A stretch of 64,000 nt of DNA, from contig NZ_CP087176.1 of NCBI RefSeq assembly GCF_024748695.1, positions 1,791,501 through 1,855,500 on the forward strand, read 5' to 3'. This document shows, piece by piece, positions 52,706-61,246 of this stretch. The stretch comes from Pseudomonas sp. B21-040 (GTDB taxonomy: Bacteria; Pseudomonadota; Gammaproteobacteria; Pseudomonadales; Pseudomonadaceae). A model generated the notes under the pieces. That model had not been told where the DNA came from. It ran no database searches and saw only the letters and a list, made by a program, of their open reading frames with translations. How positions within the stretch are numbered: the stretch's first letter is position 1; the number at the start of each line of letters is the position of its first letter. The translations under genes were made by a program, and so were the position numbers.

Positions 52706-52730
52706 CTCCCAAAAAATTGTTTGATAAATG

Positions 52731-52765
52731 AACGTGGCGTGAGGGCGAACTCACGCCACGTTTTT
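52731..52765 (+). terminator. Strong terminator after the HTH operon
   Basis: AACGTGGCGTGAG and CTCACGCCACGTT arms around a 6-base loop, followed by a T-run. Confidence 0.92.
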
Positions 52766-52899
52766 GTTTGTGCCTGTCTGGCGTTTTGTGAGGGCGAATT
52801 AGAGATTTGCCCTACGGCCATTGCCTACTTCCCTGACTTCTTTCCGGTTTGATCCCCGGCAAAGTCTCGCGCGCCCATTTTCTGCGCGAGGGATTGCCC

Positions 52900-55800
52900 A
52901 TGATTGACCCGATTGTTCACCCGCACATCGCCCGCATCGAGCAGGAACTCGACAGTTTTCCAGACACGCTTTCGCTATACCGCGAGCAGCTCAAGCGCTG
53001 GTTTAACCGAACGGCGGACACGGCCAGTCACGCCGTGGATATGCCTGCGCTGATGGGTATGGAACGGCTGATCAAACTGGGCAATACCACGACGGCGGTG
53101 AGCAGTGGCGATGCGGATTTTCTGTCCAGTGTGGCGCAGTGTCCGGCAGGCGGCATTCTGCAGATCGAGAGCAAGTTCGAGTCGGTTTATGACATCCCGT
53201 TGGGGAATATTTCGGTGGATGTGATTGCCAAGGATGGCGGCGAGATTAAATCGGTCAAGCTCGATGAAAACGGTAAAGGGCAGTTCGAAGGGATACCCGG
53301 CAAGTTCTACCGCGTGCATGTTCAGAGCGAGGTCACGCCTGAGCAAATTGATGAGCTTTTTGCCTCCTATGACGGCCTGAGCAAAGAGCTGGACGGGTGG
53401 CTGCGCAGCGAGTGGCAAGGGTTCAAACCGCAGTGGTCGCAATCGGCTTTTGCTGCGGCGGGCAACGGCATGCTCGCCGGGAGTTGGGCGGCGGTGGTCG
53501 GGGTGTGGGACAGCATCAGCCTGCTGTCGGACATTCTTAAGGATCCTCGCAAGTTCGCTGAGCGGTTGGGCAGTGGTGCCGATCACTTGGTCGAACTGGC
53601 TGAACAATTTCCGGCCACGATGGAGAAGGTTCAGTTGCTGGCCAGCGACGAAGCGGCGCTGTGTTTGCTGCTGCGCACAGCCAGCTTGTGGTTGGAGATG
53701 CTGCCGCCGAGTGTGGTTGCGGGTGAATCGACAAAGATCACCAGCCATGTGATTGCCTCATTACTGATCGACCTGTTGATCGCTTCTGCGCTGGTGTCCA
53801 CGCGAGTCGGAATACCCGTCGCCAAAGCCTATTTAACCTCCCGCGGACTTCATTACGGAAAGGTTCTGTCCGGTCTCGCGATACGTTTTGTCGAGGCCAC
53901 CTTCAACATCCTCAACCGCTTCATGAAGTACGTCGACCACTACAAAACCGTCGCCGCCCGCGGCGGCGCGGCCGGCCTGAAAAAGGGCCGGATGCAGCTG
54001 CGCTGGGAGCCCAAACGCAACACCACCCTCAAGCAAAACGAACTCCACGACGACGCCTCAAAACAAGCCACCAACCCCAACGGCGACAGTGCCGATTCCG
54101 CTGCCAACACCGCCACCAACAAATGCCCGGTGTCGATGGTCACCGGCGAAGAACTGCTGACCCTCACTGACGGTACGCTGGACGGCCTCCTGCCGTTCGA
54201 CTTCACCCGGCTCTACCGCACCAGCGCTGCCGAGCTCGATAGCGGCCTCGGTTTCGGCTGGAGTCATTCCTTATCCCATCGACTGGAAATCGATGGCGAC
54301 AGCGTCATCTGGATTGACCACGAAAACCGTCGCAGCGCTTTCCCACTGCCGAGCAGCGAGCGTCCGGCCATCCACAACAGCCTGTCGCGTGCGGCGATTT
54401 ACCTCGGTACTGAACCGCAAGAACTGATCCTCGCCCAGGCCGGCGACGACACGCGCTTTTACCATTTTCACCACGGCCAACTCACGGCGATCAGTGACGC
54501 CTACGCCAACCGCTTGCGCATCACCCGCGACCGCCAGGCGCGCATTCAGCGCCTCGACAACGGTGCCGGTCGCGCCTTGCTGTTGCGTTATGAACGCAAT
54601 CATCTGGTCGCCGTCGACTATCAGGTATTTGCCCCGACGCAGACCCTCGAAGCGTCCTGGCAGACCGAGCAAACATTGGTCAGTTACACCTACGACGAAC
54701 GCGCACAGCTTATCGAAGCGACCAACGCCGCCGACGAAAGCGAGCGCTACGACTACGACGACCAGCACGTCATCCTCCAGCGGCAACTGGCCGGCGGGGC
54801 GAGTTTTTTCTGGGAGTGGGAGCGCTCCGGCAAGGCGGCACGCTGCATCCGCCACTGGGCCTCGTTTGCGCAGATGGACGCGCGCTACGTCTGGGATGAC
54901 GCCGGTAGCGTCACCGTCCACAACATCGATGGCAGCGAAGAAGTTTACGTCCACGACGAGCGTGCGCGGCTGGTGCGCAAGGTCGACCTGGACGGTGGCG
55001 AACAGCTCAAGGCCTACGACGAGCAAGGGCGGCTGATCGCCGAGCAGGATGCGCTCGGCGCCGTCACCGAATACCGCTATGACGAAGTCGGACGCCTGGT
55101 GGCGCTGATTCCGCCAGAAGACGAGCCAACGGCCTACGAGTACCGCAACGGTTTCCTGCATGCGCGCTATCGCGGCCAAGCCATTTGGAAGTACCACCGT
55201 AACGCTCAGGGCGACGTCACTGAAGCGACCGACCCCGATGGCCAAAGCACCCATTACCACTACGATGCCCAAGGACGTTTGCTGTCGATCCGCTACCCGG
55301 ACACCAGCCGCCATGTATTCGTCTGGAATGCCTTGGGGCAATTGCTCGAAGAGACCTTGCCGGACGGTGGTCAACGGCGCTTTTCCTACGATGCCTTGGG
55401 GCGGCAGCTTACCCGTCAGGACGAACATGGCGCCGTCACGAAGTACCAATGGGACGCCGTCGGTCGACTGATCCAGACGACCCTGCCGACAGGCGCCAGT
55501 CGCGCCTATAGCTACAACGCCTACGGAAAAGTCACCGCCGAACGCGACGAACTGGGGCGCGTCACGCGTTACGAGTACGTCGACGATCTGCACCTGGTCA
55601 GCCGCCGTCTCAACGCCGATGGCACTCAGCTGAAATATCGCTACGACAACGCGCAGCTGTTACTCACGGAAATCGAGAACGAATCCGGTGAAAAATATCA
55701 GCTGGACTACACGCCCAGCGGCCTGATCCGACAGGAAACCGGCTTCGACGGCCAACGCACCGCGTATGCCTACGACCTCAACGGGCATCTGCTGGAGAAA

Positions 55801-57573
55801 ACCGAGTTCGGCGCTGATGGTTCGCAGCTCGTTACCGCCTATGAACGGGATGCGGCCGGGCGCTTGCTCGTCAAAACGCTGCCTGACGGCATCCGGGTCG
55901 AGTACCGCTACGACCGACTCGGTCGGCTGATTAGCGTCGACGACGGCCACGACCACCCGCTGGAATTCGAGTACGACCGACAGGACCGGCTGATCACCGA
56001 ACATCAGGGCTGGGGCACGCTGCGTTATGCCTACGACGCCTGCGGCCTGCTCACGCGCCTGCGCCTGCCGGACAACAGCAAACTCGACTACCACCACGCC
56101 AAGGGCGGTACGCTGACCGCCGTCGACCTCAACGACACGCGGCTCACCAGCCATCAGTTTGCCTTCGGTCGCGAGCAGCGTCGCCAGCAAGGCCAGTTGC
56201 TCAGCGAATATGCCTACGACGATCAGGGTCGTTTGCAGGCTCACGCTGTCAGCCAACGGCAGAAATCGCTGTATCGACGCGATTTTGCCTACAGCGCCAA
56301 CGGCAATCTCGACAGCATTGCCGACACCCGCCACGGCCAGCGCAATTACCAATACGACCCGCTCAACCGCCTGACGGGCGTGCGCCACACTCGCGACGAC
56401 CCACCGGAAAGCTTCGCCCACGACCCGGCCGGCAACCTGCTGATGCAGGACCGACCCGGCGCCGCCAAAGTGCAGGGCAATCGCCTGCTCCTGCAAGGCG
56501 ACCGCCACTACGATTACGACGCCTTCGGCAACCTGATCCGCGCACGTCGCGGCACCGCACAGAAACTCGTCACCGACTACCGCTACGACTGCCAGCACCG
56601 GCTCATCGGCGTCACCACCCCGGATGGACGCAACTCAAGTTATCGCTACGACGCCTTCGGCCGCCGCATCGCCAAAACCGTCGAAGGCCACACCACCGAA
56701 TTCTTCTGGCAAGGCGATAACCTCATCGCCGAAAGCAGCCGCGAACACTACCGCAGCTACATCTACGAACCCGGCAGCTTCCGCCCGCTGGCGATGCTCG
56801 ACGGCAAAGGCCCACACAAAGCTTGCCCGTTCTACTACCAACTCGACCACCTCGGCACACCGCAGGAACTGACCGATTTTGGCGGCGAAATCGTCTGGTC
56901 GGCGAAGTACAACGCCTACGGCAAAGTCACGCGCCTGGCGTTCGGCGGAGGCGAGCAGCTTGAGCAGCCGCTACGGTTTCAGGGGCAATACTTCGACGCC
57001 GAGAGCGGCCTGCACTACAACCGGCATCGGTACTATGATCCGGATGTTGGACGGTACCTGACGCCGGACCCGATCAAGTTGGCGGGTGGGCTGAACCAGT
57101 ACCAGTACACGCCGAATCCGACGGGATGGGTTGATCCGTTGGGGTTGAGCGGGAACTGCCCGCCGCCGAATAAGCCTGGGTGTTCGGCGCCGGATGATAC
57201 GACTGGCGCTAGGGTGGATGAGGGTGAACCGGCGCTTCCTACAATAATCAGCGGAGTAGATCCAGGCAGTTTAAAAAGAACTCATTCAATAGAGGGTAAA
57301 ACTTCCACCAAGCAAGTAGAAGCTATAGCTGGAAAAATGCAAAAAAAAGGATATGACGACGATTGGCCAATTGATGTTGTGGAACATAATGGAAACCGCT
57401 ATATAGTCGATGGGCACCATAGGGCTTCTGCGGCCAGACAAACCCACACTAAAGTCAGTATCGTATTGATTAAAGATATTGTAAGCCATCACAGTATTTT
57501 CAATAGTATCGATGAAGTTAAAGAGTCTGCCGATAATGTAGGGCATGATAGATTGGTGAGGGCAAGAAGATGA
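52900..57573 (+). CDS. Rhs-family polymorphic toxin with ParB/sulfiredoxin-like C-terminal tip
   Basis: A 1557-residue protein. Residues 1-400 are a variable N-terminal region with hydrophobic segments around 283-320 and no PAAR motif. At about 408-440 the DUF6531-like stretch (MVTGEELLTLTDGTLDGLLP) begins the Rhs cage, followed by many YD repeats to about residue 1380. The core ends in the classical boundary DPLGLSG (about 1411-1417). The last 140 residues are an AT-rich tip with WPIDVVEHNGNRYIVDGHHR; the DGHHR at 1504-1508 resembles ParB/sulfiredoxin catalytic motifs. It is probably a toxin of the type VI secretion system. GAGGGA precedes the ATG. No VgrG, PAAR or Eag chaperone gene is near. 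Confidence 0.9.
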   Translation: MIDPIVHPHIARIEQELDSFPDTLSLYREQLKRWFNRTADTASHAVDMPALMGMERLIKLGNTTTAVSSGDADFLSSVAQCPAGGILQIESKFESVYDIPLGNISVDVIAKDGGEIKSVKLDENGKGQFEGIPGKFYRVHVQSEVTPEQIDELFASYDGLSKELDGWLRSEWQGFKPQWSQSAFAAAGNGMLAGSWAAVVGVWDSISLLSDILKDPRKFAERLGSGADHLVELAEQFPATMEKVQLLASDEAALCLLLRTASLWLEMLPPSVVAGESTKITSHVIASLLIDLLIASALVSTRVGIPVAKAYLTSRGLHYGKVLSGLAIRFVEATFNILNRFMKYVDHYKTVAARGGAAGLKKGRMQLRWEPKRNTTLKQNELHDDASKQATNPNGDSADSAANTATNKCPVSMVTGEELLTLTDGTLDGLLPFDFTRLYRTSAAELDSGLGFGWSHSLSHRLEIDGDSVIWIDHENRRSAFPLPSSERPAIHNSLSRAAIYLGTEPQELILAQAGDDTRFYHFHHGQLTAISDAYANRLRITRDRQARIQRLDNGAGRALLLRYERNHLVAVDYQVFAPTQTLEASWQTEQTLVSYTYDERAQLIEATNAADESERYDYDDQHVILQRQLAGGASFFWEWERSGKAARCIRHWASFAQMDARYVWDDAGSVTVHNIDGSEEVYVHDERARLVRKVDLDGGEQLKAYDEQGRLIAEQDALGAVTEYRYDEVGRLVALIPPEDEPTAYEYRNGFLHARYRGQAIWKYHRNAQGDVTEATDPDGQSTHYHYDAQGRLLSIRYPDTSRHVFVWNALGQLLEETLPDGGQRRFSYDALGRQLTRQDEHGAVTKYQWDAVGRLIQTTLPTGASRAYSYNAYGKVTAERDELGRVTRYEYVDDLHLVSRRLNADGTQLKYRYDNAQLLLTEIENESGEKYQLDYTPSGLIRQETGFDGQRTAYAYDLNGHLLEKTEFGADGSQLVTAYERDAAGRLLVKTLPDGIRVEYRYDRLGRLISVDDGHDHPLEFEYDRQDRLITEHQGWGTLRYAYDACGLLTRLRLPDNSKLDYHHAKGGTLTAVDLNDTRLTSHQFAFGREQRRQQGQLLSEYAYDDQGRLQAHAVSQRQKSLYRRDFAYSANGNLDSIADTRHGQRNYQYDPLNRLTGVRHTRDDPPESFAHDPAGNLLMQDRPGAAKVQGNRLLLQGDRHYDYDAFGNLIRARRGTAQKLVTDYRYDCQHRLIGVTTPDGRNSSYRYDAFGRRIAKTVEGHTTEFFWQGDNLIAESSREHYRSYIYEPGSFRPLAMLDGKGPHKACPFYYQLDHLGTPQELTDFGGEIVWSAKYNAYGKVTRLAFGGGEQLEQPLRFQGQYFDAESGLHYNRHRYYDPDVGRYLTPDPIKLAGGLNQYQYTPNPTGWVDPLGLSGNCPPPNKPGCSAPDDTTGARVDEGEPALPTIISGVDPGSLKRTHSIEGKTSTKQVEAIAGKMQKKGYDDDWPIDVVEHNGNRYIVDGHHRASAARQTHTKVSIVLIKDIVSHHSIFNSIDEVKESADNVGHDRLVRARR

Positions 57574-57989
57574 AAAACGAAGATTTAGAATGTTTGATTG
57601 ATGACTTTCTGGCTCAGGTAGAAAAAGCTACAGACTTGCTTGAGGAACGATTTGGTAAAAAATGTATTCTGCGGCTGTGGCGAGCAAATGAAATTCCGCA
57701 GCGAGGTGAAATTTTAGATGGCATAAATTACGAATTGCATGGTGTTGGTTGTAGGGTGTATTTTCCGGAGATATGCGTTGATTTCGATTACGGGCCAGGC
57801 GAACGAGTCGATGGATTTGATGTGTGGAGACTATACATTTACGCATGTGAAGTTCCTCTGCTACACCCTAAATACATAGATCAGGATGCGGTGAAGCGAG
57901 ACCTCAATGAATATATCAGTCTTGGAAAGGTAGAGAGGGTTTCTGGCTCTATGTCGAATCTCTACTTTAAGAGCGCAGTTAATTGGTGA
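57570..57989 (+). CDS. Probable immunity protein of the Rhs toxin
   Basis: A 139-residue, acidic, soluble protein whose ATG overlaps the Rhs stop codon by 4 bp. This position is standard for immunity proteins. A core GVGCRVYFPEICVDFDYGPGERVDGFD is probably of the DUF6896-like kind, as I recall, but I am not certain. GC content is low like the toxin tip, so both came together. It should bind and block the toxin tip. Not verified. Confidence 0.75.
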   Translation: MKNEDLECLIDDFLAQVEKATDLLEERFGKKCILRLWRANEIPQRGEILDGINYELHGVGCRVYFPEICVDFDYGPGERVDGFDVWRLYIYACEVPLLHPKYIDQDAVKRDLNEYISLGKVERVSGSMSNLYFKSAVNW

Positions 57990-58048
57990 GGATGTGTTTT
58001 TTATCTAGAATATCGATTTTGATGGTTTGTCGCGATAAGTAGCGGAGT

Positions 58049-58176
58049 AAAGGGGGGCGGATTATTTTTGCTGTCAGCTTCGAAGGTATTGGTAGCATTA
58101 ATAAGAGCAACAAACAAATCCGTCCTCTTTTTGGTCCCGTTCTAAGTAATAGATACATCCGTCCCCTTTGTGGTCC
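58049..58176. repeat. Three degenerate copies of a GGGGACGGAT-like motif
   Basis: AAAGGGGGGCGGATTATTTT (58049-58068), then in the other orientation ACAAATCCGTCCTCTTTTTG (58114-58133) and ATCCGTCCCCTTTGTGGTCC (58157-58176). They resemble the AAAGGGGACGGATTTATT motif found at many bacterial mobile or repeat elements. They lie between the immunity gene and the orphan ORF and are probably an eroded element. Confidence 0.5.
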
Positions 58177-58206
58177 TTTGTGAAAAATATTTAACGGGCT
58201 TCTACT

Positions 58207-58506
58207 TTGAAGATAGTGAAATCTACTCGATTTGATGATGTCGACCACGAAGTTGGATATGAGTACCGTGGTTGTAACTACGAAATACAGAACGAAGTGG
58301 ATTTGTTTCTGATCAGAATTTACGATGATGAACCCGGACAGGCAACGGTAGTACGTCCGACTACGATATCTAAAAACGGTAATCTTAGAAAGATTGTTGA
58401 GTTTTTACAATCCGAGCTAGGAGTTTCCAAGATCAATCTCTACAAGGGCGAATTGGGGAGCTACGCCAAGATCGATCTTGATAGCTTGGCGTTCTGCTCC
58501 GTCTGA
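58207..58506 (+). CDS. Orphan small protein, possibly a second immunity gene
   Basis: A 99-residue frame starting with TTG (58207) or GTG (58216), with no strong ribosome site. Composition is protein-like and acidic (VDHEVGYEYRGCNYEIQNEV, FLQSELGVSKINLYKGELG). GC content is low, as in the Rhs tip. It may be an immunity gene left from an earlier toxin tip, or a truncated relic. No family recognised. Confidence 0.5.
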   Translation: MKIVKSTRFDDVDHEVGYEYRGCNYEIQNEVDLFLIRIYDDEPGQATVVRPTTISKNGNLRKIVEFLQSELGVSKINLYKGELGSYAKIDLDSLAFCSV

Positions 58507-58989
58507 AGTCGGTAGCAAGAGAGTGGCAGGCGTTTTTACACACTCTGGGCCGCATTCTGTCGTTGCTGAGCGGCAGCTATAGGTGGTGGATTCAACAGGT
58601 GGCGAAATCAAGCCAAGCTGCAGTGGAGCCTTTCGCCACGTTTGCTTTTTTGAGCGAAATTTCTGGGCAAGCCCGTCGGAAGTTTCCTTCAACTCGTATC
58701 GGTTTCCATGAACTGGTGTGAATCGAATTCAACCGATAGCCTTTGATGGTCACTGAAAATTCAGTGGTGGGGTGTAGGAACCCTTCATAGCATCGGTAGC
58801 GCTGTAAGCGTTCGAAACTTGATTTGCGGCCGTCAATGCACGTCCGTAACATCTGTTACGGCGGCTGTGCGCGGGCACGTTTCGGCGTGGTCGAGTTTCC
58901 GATGCTCGGTATTCCTACCCCGCGTATAGCTGCCACCCAAGCCTGTAGGAAGGCTTTTGGCAGCTCCTATTTTCATCGGAAGGTCTTAA
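58507..58989. other. Non-coding stretch after the Rhs island
   Basis: 483 bases without a convincing gene. The first part holds TGAGCGGCAGCTATAGG, which resembles a non-coding Pseudomonas repeat. From about 58820 to 58985 a leader-like region precedes the gene at 58990; it includes a small Arg/Cys-rich frame (58824-59009, 61 codons) that overlaps that gene in another frame. Confidence 0.45.
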
Positions 58990-59316
58990 ATGCCAACACT
59001 ACATCCTGATCCACCCTACGAAAAACCAATCCCGCATCCCAAAAATCGCTTCATGGCGCTCACCAGCAACTGCACCAACATGCCTACGCTGTTCGTCGAT
59101 ACCCACGCCCCGCTCGATGTTTTATACGACGCCGCCAACTATCGAATTCGCGCCGTTACACAGGTGCTGGAGAACATGTCGATGCGCGGATCGGTTGAGT
59201 GTGAATCCTTTATCCTCAGCGACTTTGCCTTACTCTGTGCCATTCCATTGCGCGATGGCTGTGACGTGCTTGATGTGCTGGGGCGGCGGTTGCGGGCTCG
59301 ATTTTCTGAGGTTTAG
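58990..59316 (+). CDS. Small Pseudomonas protein (DUF3077/DUF6124-like)
   Basis: A 108-residue protein. The pattern THAPLDVLYDAANYRIRAVT followed by a middle helix fits the small DUF3077/DUF6124-type proteins found in many copies in fluorescent pseudomonads; this is from memory and moderate in certainty. GGAAGG at 58977-58982 precedes the ATG. Function unknown. Confidence 0.65.
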   Translation: MPTLHPDPPYEKPIPHPKNRFMALTSNCTNMPTLFVDTHAPLDVLYDAANYRIRAVTQVLENMSMRGSVECESFILSDFALLCAIPLRDGCDVLDVLGRRLRARFSEV

Positions 59317-59359
59317 AAATTGAGGATCAGGCTCAAAATTTGGTCAGTCTGATTGGGCC

Positions 59360-59449
59360 TCTTCGCGGGCAAGCCCGCTCCTACATTTAACCGAGTATTT
59401 CCAGAAGTAAGCGGTTAATGTAGGAGCGAGCCTGCTCGCTATGGCGTCA
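59360..59449. repeat. Inverted REP doublet
   Basis: TCGCGGGCAAGCCCGCTCCT and, inverted, AGGAGCGAGCCTGCTCGCTA with a 40-base spacer; the spacer also pairs in part (TTAACCG and CGGTTAA). Lies between convergent genes. Confidence 0.88.
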
Positions 59450-59455
59450 GATCAT

Positions 59456-61246
59456 TCAGCGCTGCCCTTCAAACAGTGCGTCCTCATTTTCTGGCACCGC
59501 CAAACTATCAATCACATGCACGCTATACCCCTGCACATTCTTCGCATGGTGTTTAGCCTGCGATGCCATCTCCGCCAACTGGCTCGCATCGAGTTGTCCA
59601 CAGGCCCGCGGATGCAGGTGCACTACGCCAATCGACAGTGACAGCAGCGCAAATTCCTGGCGCACTCCCTGACGATTGGGGGCGATGAAGCAGCCGGCTT
59701 CCAGGTGTTCGCTGCGGTAGAAGCGTCGGCATTGGCTGTGGAAGTCGTCCAGCAGTTGGTTCAAGCGTTTTCGCCAGTCTTCCGGGCCGAGCACCAGCAG
59801 GAAGTCGTCGCCGCCGATATGGCCGACGAAGTCGCGGGAAGGGTCGACGCGATCGTTCAGGCATTGCGCCAGGCACAACAGGACTTCGTCGCCACGGCCG
59901 TAGCCGTAGATGTCGTTGAAGGGTTTGAAGCTGTCGATGTCGACGTAGCAGATGATCGACTCGCGCTCCTGTTGCAGCAACCGTGTCAGGCATTGCTGGA
60001 TCGGTACGTTGCCGGGCAACAGGGTCAGCGGGTTGGCGTAGCGGGCTTGCTGGATTTTTAGTTCGGTAATCAGTTTGAGTACATCAATGACCCGACCCAG
60101 TCCCAGGTAGCTGCCGTTGAGGGTGATGATGAAATCTTCTTCGATGCGCTGGCGGGCGCGGCTGGTGATCAGGCGGCTGACCTGTTGCAGCGACTGGCTC
60201 ATTTCCACGGCCAGAAAGTCGTCGTTCATCAAGCGACTGATCGGTTTGCGCGCGAACAGGTCGGTGGCAAACGGCTTGAGTAGCGCGTCTGAGAGCGAAT
60301 GCCGGTGAACGATGCCGCAGGGGTGGCCTTGCTCGTCGAGCACCGCCAGGGAGTTCAGGTTGGCCTGGCGGCGGAACGCTTCCAGCACGGTGGCGGTCGG
60401 CGTGTCGCGCGACACGGCCGGTTGGTCGTTGAGCAGGGCACTGAGGTCGCTGCCTTCGTCGTTAAGCGCGACGGCGGTGCTGTCGTGTTTGGGCATCAGG
60501 TTACGTGCATCCCGGGGCGGGTGCTCCTGAGGACGGCACAGCAAATAGCCCTGGACCAGGTCGACGCCCATCTCGGTCAACACCGCGAGCTCTTCCGGCA
60601 ATTCGATACCTTCGGCAATCACTTGGGCCCGCGAGGCTTTGGCGATTTGCAGGATCGAGCCGACAAATTCGCGTTTGAGCGCGTCCTGGTGAATCCCGTC
60701 GATGAAATGGCGATCAATCTTCACGTAATCCGGACGCAGCTCGGACCACAATCGCAAGCTTGAATACCCCGCCCCCAGATCATCCAGTGCGATGGAAAAG
60801 CCCATCGCCCGATAGTGATGCAGCGCGTTTTGCAGCAACTGGAAATCGTCGGTCGGGGTCTGTTCAGTGAGTTCGATGACCACCTGACTCGGTGGAATGC
60901 CGAAATCCTGCAGCAGTTGCAGGGTGCGCCCAGGCTGGTGGGCGGCTTCGAGCAGGGATTCCGGGGAGACGTTGAGAAACAGCTTGCCTGGCAGTTGCTG
61001 TTCGTTGAAACGTCGGCAAGCACTTTCACGGCAAGCGATTTCCAGCTCGCTCAAGCGACCGGCCTGGCGCGCCACGGAGAACAAGGCAATGGGGGAGTGC
61101 AGCGGGCTGTTCGAAGGGCCGCGAGTAAGGGCTTCATAGCCGACAATGCATCGCTCGGAGAGGGAAATGATCGGTTGGAACAGGCTGTGCAAGCCGCTTT
61201 GAGCCAGTATGGAACTCAAGGCACTCAGCTGTTCTGTCATGGTCAT
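59456..61246 (-). CDS. EAL-CBS-GGDEF cyclic di-GMP protein
   Basis: A 596-residue cytoplasmic protein. Residues 15-245 form an EAL phosphodiesterase domain with EALTR (near 38), a DDLGAGYSS catalytic loop and QGYLLCRP. Residues 265-400 hold a pair of CBS domains. Residues 415-590 form a GGDEF domain with GGDDF (478-482) in place of GGDEF. The EAL residues look intact, so phosphodiesterase activity is likely; the cyclase may be active or only bind GTP. Start at 61246 (MTMTEQ); a second ATG six bases on is also possible. It is next to prc as in P. aeruginosa. Confidence 0.9.
   Translation of the reverse strand: MTMTEQLSALSSILAQSGLHSLFQPIISLSERCIVGYEALTRGPSNSPLHSPIALFSVARQAGRLSELEIACRESACRRFNEQQLPGKLFLNVSPESLLEAAHQPGRTLQLLQDFGIPPSQVVIELTEQTPTDDFQLLQNALHHYRAMGFSIALDDLGAGYSSLRLWSELRPDYVKIDRHFIDGIHQDALKREFVGSILQIAKASRAQVIAEGIELPEELAVLTEMGVDLVQGYLLCRPQEHPPRDARNLMPKHDSTAVALNDEGSDLSALLNDQPAVSRDTPTATVLEAFRRQANLNSLAVLDEQGHPCGIVHRHSLSDALLKPFATDLFARKPISRLMNDDFLAVEMSQSLQQVSRLITSRARQRIEEDFIITLNGSYLGLGRVIDVLKLITELKIQQARYANPLTLLPGNVPIQQCLTRLLQQERESIICYVDIDSFKPFNDIYGYGRGDEVLLCLAQCLNDRVDPSRDFVGHIGGDDFLLVLGPEDWRKRLNQLLDDFHSQCRRFYRSEHLEAGCFIAPNRQGVRQEFALLSLSIGVVHLHPRACGQLDASQLAEMASQAKHHAKNVQGYSVHVIDSLAVPENEDALFEGQR

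Follow-up and report, generated by a model that had tools for sequence, protein, structure and literature searches.

A 64,000-nucleotide stretch of the genome of Pseudomonas sp. B21-040 (contig NZ_CP087176.1, positions 1,791,501 to 1,855,500; the window) holds an Rhs gene whose product ends in a short variable tip, followed directly by a small gene. The locus raises two questions, namely what the tip would do to a competing bacterium and what protects its producer. The overall explanation that fits best is that the gene pair encodes an Rhs polymorphic effector and its immunity protein, a reading to which we give an even chance when a nucleotide-using tip is counted as part of it. The features on which the argument turns are as follows, in window coordinates:

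57229..57570, + strand: toxin tip of 114 amino acids (aa), a domain of predicted ParB/sulfiredoxin type
57409..57423, + strand: DGHHR motif, which fits the GxxR phosphate motif (Box II)
57283..57285, + strand: His19 of the tip, candidate second active-site position
57304..57351, + strand: helix and loop S26-G41, by position the putative Box I (C motif) of the ParB fold
57538..57555, + strand: VGHDRL, C-terminal motif of most DUF6896-paired tips
57570..57573, + strand: ATGA overlap of the tip stop (TGA, 57571-57573) and the next-gene start (ATG, 57570-57572)
57570..57989, + strand: 139-aa DUF6896 (PF21837) protein, the likely immunity protein
52906..57228, + strand: Rhs scaffold with DUF6531, RHS/YD repeats, Rhs core and a linker rich in guanine and cytosine (GC)
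57133..57153, + strand: DPLGLSG boundary motif of the Rhs core, read from the sequence

The Rhs open reading frame (ORF) spans 52849-57573; it is open from a TTG at 52849 (1574 aa). Translation from the ATG at 52906 yields a product of 1555 aa, as long as the database protein P0001, which agrees with the window at 100% identity over the tip region. The scaffold matches Pfam RHS_repeat (6.6e-71), DUF6531 (4.8e-21) and RHS (9.6e-17) as well as TIGR03696 (1.3e-26). The three features expected of a polymorphic Rhs toxin, namely the repeats, the core and a C-terminal tip that varies, are all present. Within the tip, the stretch PIDVVEHNGNRYIVDGHHRASAA starts at 57367. A preliminary description of this DNA, made from its letters, had the next gene beginning within the stop codon of the tip; the ATGA overlap and the 139-aa product were both confirmed from the sequence.

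To what family does the tip belong? The preliminary description had proposed a kinship with ParB and sulfiredoxin and suggested a profile search as its check; that search matched sulfiredoxin, SbnI, ParB and SerK, and the two outcomes named as speaking against the proposal, membership of another toxin family and an unconserved DGHHR, did not arise. As a single sequence, the 114-aa tip matched Pfam ParBc_2 (1.7e-4) and DUF1015 (3.8e-3), both below their cut-offs, and parB_part (0.074) as its sole NCBIfam match. A 144-aa version of the tip matched several ParB-like PHROGs (1.9e-4 for the best of those named ParB) and nothing in NCBIfam at E <= 1. Plain phmmer against the Protein Data Bank (PDB) yielded nothing useful, and profiles were required. 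One profile was built from an alignment of 40 tips (A2), in which the window is joined by 39 tips from the 80 loci retained out of 93 found, with near copies, broken or short tips, and archaeal and other relatives unlike toxin ends excluded; it matched structures of sulfiredoxin (2.2e-7), SbnI (3.3e-6), ParB (2.8e-4) and SerK (1.6e-3). The other, from the 26 tips that have a DUF6896 gene downstream (A4; the window and 25 more), matched sulfiredoxin (2.3e-6), ParB (1e-3), SbnI (7.1e-3) and SerK (down to 0.059). When these 26 paired tips were compared with NCBIfam at E <= 0.1, parB_part matched 15 (best 3.9e-5), SerK 12 (best 6.8e-8), the Noc model 6 and SbnI 3; in the ten paired tips whose matches were inspected singly, every match lay under its family cut-off. 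At the level of sequence profiles, the place of the tip in the ParB/sulfiredoxin superfamily is thus well supported, whereas its assignment to SerK, sulfiredoxin or partition ParB finds no support. With regard to the last, the 114-aa tip matched the ParB N-domain only, the helix-turn-helix and dimerisation domains were not found, and no ParA partner was present among the five proteins of the Pfam scan, a short list. Matches of the tip to VapB (PF23719) and DUF1015 were dismissed as weak and as lying over the same GHHR stretch. PADLOC returned a single weak match (PD-Lambda-5_A, 0.0033).

None of the five residues of DGHHR (D61, G62, H63, H64 and R65) varies among the 26 rows of A4, and beyond them no other histidine or acidic residue is invariant there. 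Conservation of the motif, which the preliminary description had expected, was borne out by a full-length Rhs protein search, in which 12/12 relatives carry DGHHR and one has a tip identical to that of the window, and by a profile search that scored 8000 candidates and retrieved 261 proteins, where the 120 proteins listed divide into 113 with DGHHR and 7 with NGHHR. The 26 rows and the 120 listed proteins lean toward the motif to some degree: one of the two seeds of the species scan that supplied the 26 rows was the pattern YI[VIL]DGHHR, and the words of the profile search may also contain DGHHR. According to the main text of a 2025 survey (PMC12704722), Box II of the ParB fold reads GxxR, and it is the P motifs that touch phosphate and magnesium; GHHR of the tip fits this phosphate motif by sequence. 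The putative Box I was placed from profile alignments and the box definition of the same survey.

DGHHR is also letter-identical to the motif of three sequences of the type of SerK, the archaeal free serine kinase dependent on adenosine diphosphate (ADP). A joint MAFFT alignment lands tip His19 on Glu30 of these three sequences (two of which exceed the family cut-off), a residue that we take to be catalytic in SerK. At position 19, the 78 of the 120 listed relatives with a letter there have H (28), E (28), Q (20), D (1) or V (1), so that 77/78 carry H, E, Q or D; the two Streptomyces rows have Glu. The aspartate of VGHDRL is D in 23 of the 26 paired rows and a gap in the other 3, and the motif was not seen in the inspected relatives that lack DUF6896. 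As a separate observation, proteins of a Thermococcales type, about 136-155 aa long, also carry DGHHR (L060, L061, L062, L064, L065, L071, L073, L077 and L082), and short SerK-model matches turned up in the genomes searched.

By sequence, the nearest named class is Tox-ParB, which the tip fits and which is not new: it was described in 2012 (Zhang et al., PMC3482391) from RHS and filamentous toxins, DGHHR included, and the partners listed in the main text are Imm20, Imm27 and Imm-SuFu. The likeness extends to the C-terminal position behind RHS repeats, the ParB superfamily and the conserved motif, and HINT and filamentous scaffolds are used there as well. The present tip differs in its partner, DUF6896, which is absent among the partners shown in that main text, and most DUF6896-paired tips have a longer C-terminus carrying VGxDxL. 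The preliminary description had called ParB-like toxins little studied, which is fair, but both the class and DGHHR were already described in that 2012 paper. It was the only paper found on the Tox-ParB name or the DGHHR motif. No experimental study of a ParB-type toxin was found by title or abstract start in a search in which most subscription journals were outside the scope, and the main text of the 2025 ParB-fold survey uses no word that starts with 'toxin' or 'Rhs' (PMC12704722).

Other members of the superfamily resemble the tip in part. SerK and SbnI share the superfamily, the motif (DGHHR in SerK, DGVHR in SbnI) and an alignable helix before it; SerK differs in its length of about 242 aa, in a family cut-off that the tip falls far under, and in Glu30, which has no clear match. 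Sulfiredoxin gives the best PDB profile match and its GCHR aligns with GHHR of the tip, which has histidine where sulfiredoxin has the motif cysteine. That cysteine is the catalytic residue of sulfiredoxin. The ParB and Noc cytidine triphosphatases have the ParB fold predicted for the tip, with a GxxR Box II, and differ in reading GERR where the tip reads GHHR and in having more than the ParB N-domain, the one part of ParB that the tip matched.

What, then, is the partner? The 139-aa protein is a member of Pfam DUF6896 (102.2 bits against a gathering cut-off of 27). None of the solved structures is related to it (best E 0.47), and the family is named in no paper found in literature that lacked most subscription journals. 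Pairing with the tip was scanned with a narrow profile built from close DUF6896 relatives, a partner being one within about 330 bases downstream. That the adjacent gene accompanies the tip, as the preliminary description had it, proved correct well beyond this locus. All 40 of the top-listed loci of the species-wide scan (L004-L043) have DUF6896 downstream of the tip, including two whose tips are frame-broken (L040 and L041). Across the 80 loci kept the count is at least 44 (L046, L047, L079 and L083 being added) with none in the other 36, and this is a lower bound because the narrow profile missed the partner in L118, which Pfam confirms. Within the genus, where 11 first-look candidates were scored per genome, 398 genomes gave 45 tip places (two are pieces of one tip); in 40 of these DUF6896 lies downstream at a distance of 15-139 bases, and the remaining five are weak tip matches (1.1e-8 to 5.1e-5). 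The species of L004-L043 and L084-L113 overlap, so these counts are not independent.

The pairing also recurs on other scaffolds and in other phyla. DUF6896-paired tips stand behind a HINT pretoxin scaffold in two Streptomyces loci (L042 and L043) and in Parabeggiatoa (L036), behind a VENN pretoxin scaffold in L118, which is of the same class as the window genome, and behind RHS repeats in a metagenome-assembled genome of Clostridiales (L047); in the paired loci L037 and L079 the search for a scaffold family found none. All 8 outlying partners score above the Pfam DUF6896 cut-off. Mainly because of this recurrence, DUF6896 is likely the immunity family of this Tox-ParB subfamily, as judged from adjacency, and its role as partner of a Tox-ParB tip appears to be new. 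An alignment of 58 family members (A3; the window, 49 of the 120 listed proteins and 8 loci), all of which match DUF6896 at E <= 0.01, has His57, Gly60, Asp84 and Arg87 as invariant residues. In a tree of the tips, a 50-row DUF6896-paired group (99/93) stands apart from a 14-row group without DUF6896 (93/88). With 72 rows and few columns, this tree needs three changes of the DUF6896 label, a single origin being still possible, and it does not firmly place the outlying paired rows (Streptomyces, L047, L079 and L118, the last wrongly labelled 'no'). The narrow profile detected no DUF6896 beside the five rhs genes of E. coli K-12, though an E. coli control matched, the copy itself not being located.

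The two features below bear on how the tip and its partner came to this locus and on which gene protects the producer:

57228..58653, strand not assigned: exchanged cassette between two blocks of homology with a paralogous Rhs locus
58207..58506, + strand: 99-aa ORF rich in adenine and thymine (AT), a probable immunity gene that remained from a different tip

The tip was said in the preliminary description to be exchangeable, and a paralogous Rhs gene in the same genome (L161/L178) bears this out: it is 90.8% identical over 52725-57227 (blastn), the linker ...DDTTGARVDEGE is common to both, and beyond this linker its tip is unrelated to that of the window. Homology to L178 picks up again at 58654-59495 (77.1%, blastn), so that the exchanged stretch contains the tip, the 139-aa gene and the 99-aa ORF. 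We read this as cassette exchange because the paralogue has another tip from the same linker onward. The composition of the DNA changes here as well: the GC fraction is 0.613 in the core, 0.407 in the tip (57232-57570) and 0.419 in the next gene, and at third codon positions it falls from 0.758 to 0.319 from core to tip. Windows of 339 bp as AT-rich as the tip make up 0.7% (step 50 bases), and 24 of the 25 with the lowest GC start within 57151-58301. The preliminary description had placed the onset of the AT-rich DNA after DPLGLSG; the shift is real, but it does not begin at the motif, as the linker at 57145-57231 still has a GC fraction of 0.644, and GC falls where the alignment with the paralogue stops, at 57227.

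How might such a tip act? Going by the profiles, it would adopt the ParB/sulfiredoxin fold with GHHR at the grip of the fold on nucleotide phosphate. DGHHR may bind adenosine triphosphate (ATP), ADP or another nucleoside triphosphate (NTP), and His19, or the Glu, Gln or Asp of relatives, could act on the substrate. The tip would then move phosphate to a molecule of the victim or drain its nucleotide pool (compare SerK, SbnI and sulfiredoxin), and the DUF6896 protein from the overlapping gene would neutralise it in the producer, as the constant adjacency suggests. We favour a nucleotide-dependent phosphotransferase over a nuclease, with confidence that is about evenly balanced and on sequence grounds, because DGHHR is the exact SerK motif, because SerK, SbnI and sulfiredoxin use the fold as an ATP-binding module for enzymatic work (main text of PMC12704722), and because the SerK protein, whose phosphate donor is ADP, had been annotated as ParB and its Pyrococcus homologue reported as a nuclease before the kinase activity was found (as related in PMC5120207). 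Several points weigh against this assignment. The SerK and ParB models fit the paired tips about equally, and the Noc model fits some of them, so profiles cannot pick between a kinase and a ParB-like function. The best paired tip (L047) reaches 32 bits against a cut-off of 380 bits for the free serine kinase family NF053625, which is why the tip is not filed as SerK, and the cysteine of the sulfiredoxin GCHR is absent. The HMMER alignment sets SerK Glu30 on the column of tip Glu22, an unconserved residue, so that the register of His19 is uncertain. Finally, nucleotide choice in the ParB fold is described as not reliably predictable from sequence (main text of PMC12704722).

A metal-dependent ParB-fold nuclease that cuts DNA or RNA of the victim, with DGHHR as its metal site, is the activity put forward by Zhang et al. 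(2012), who argue that such toxins are mostly nucleases and predict that DGHHR forms part of a metal-binding site (PMC3482391); ParB-like DNases in polymorphic toxins and other conflict systems are recorded in the relevant part of Iyer et al. (2017). Yet the same section of Zhang et al. that makes this prediction also states that the original ParB nuclease claim was built on wrong assumptions, the archaeal protein with the ParB annotation and the nuclease-reported homologue turned out to be a kinase (PMC5120207), and the 26 paired rows offer no invariant histidine or acidic residue outside DGHHR; we consider a nuclease rather unlikely. It is improbable, in our estimate, that the tip is a nucleotide-dependent binder or NTP hydrolase that depletes nucleotide or jams a partner with no transfer of phosphate to a specific substrate: modules of this fold often bind or hydrolyse NTPs and vary in the nucleotide they choose (main text of PMC12704722), but the restriction of position 19 to H, E, Q or D suggests chemistry beyond binding. 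The partner has a rival as well, since DUF6896 could be a passenger and the true antidote be encoded elsewhere, for example by the 99-aa ORF at 58207, which shares the exchanged cassette with the tip. Of the 70 DUF6896 places in the genus, 39 have an upstream tip and 31 do not, which counts against a dedicated immunity role and leaves room for another one; for the same reason, we dropped the idea that DUF6896 is exclusive to this tip. Set against the passenger explanation, DUF6896 is behind the tip in every one of L004-L043 and in outlying phyla and scaffolds, and in 2 of 5 loci inspected the 99-aa family is found after an Rhs gene whose tip is a different one, which makes this explanation very improbable.

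A wider proposal, possible but tentative, builds on the phosphotransferase reading: Tox-ParB tips may be injected phosphotransferases of common stock with free serine kinase and sulfiredoxin, phosphorylating a metabolite or protein of the victim and not cutting nucleic acid, and DUF6896, with its four invariant residues, may be their dedicated antidote, perhaps an enzyme that reverses the damage, kept as a stand-alone guard in many Pseudomonas. DUF6896 would thereby gain a likely function, and some solitary DUF6896 genes could be orphan immunity genes. The pair is also compact, consisting of a tip of 114 aa and an antidote encoded by one gene, is found in more than one phylum, and lends itself to distinguishing nuclease, NTP hydrolase and kinase.

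Delivery would follow the Rhs class, in which the Rhs shell is expected to release the 114-residue C-terminal tip into a competing bacterium. The source genome, a single contig of 6.75 Mb, has two VipB places, and 9 of its 11 VgrG places are over the cut-off (one only with a neighbour in frame). With these places mapped across the genome, no secretion locus was found beside the Rhs gene, a point against the effector reading, and the Pfam scan of five window proteins gave no match to a PAAR domain.

The 99-aa ORF has no Pfam match. Among 249 genomes of the genus, 19 contain relatives of it, and at L191 and L192 these follow Rhs genes with other tips; it is likely a displaced immunity gene.

Further DUF6896 genes were observed apart from the tip. 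A second copy in the source genome (C1:1919093-1919449, - strand; L003/L179), a 125-aa ORF shorter than its relatives, sits downstream of an Rhs gene whose tip, by eye, resembles an ADP-ribosyltransferase, and is probably an immunity gene retained after a tip swap. Thirteen tip-less DUF6896 places were inspected, one of which (L135) has an Rhs core among the printed ORFs. A second type of the family (HGYGCAV...FDFG; L114, L115, L130, L132, L136, L140-L143, L150 and L153) has no Rhs core in the surrounding printed ORFs and is either an orphan guard or a protein of different function. The 334-aa ORF at L117:889-1890 (- strand) has DUF6896 at its N-terminus and a C-terminal half that is something other than DUF6896. 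Distant relatives (<60% identity) are carried on 34 plasmid records from Providencia, Proteus, Morganella, Caballeronia and Hymenobacter. IMG/VR has relatives at 12 loci, and 2 plasmid records carry relatives of the tip itself.

The source genome has 10 Rhs core matches in all, and at C1:2652685-2658000 three consecutive core matches have three different tips (L157-L159), with a VgrG gene nearby at 2663206. Behind the immunity gene of the window, the AT-rich stretch contains a short near-repeat, ATCCGTCC.CTTT.TGGTCC, twice at about 58117-58180.

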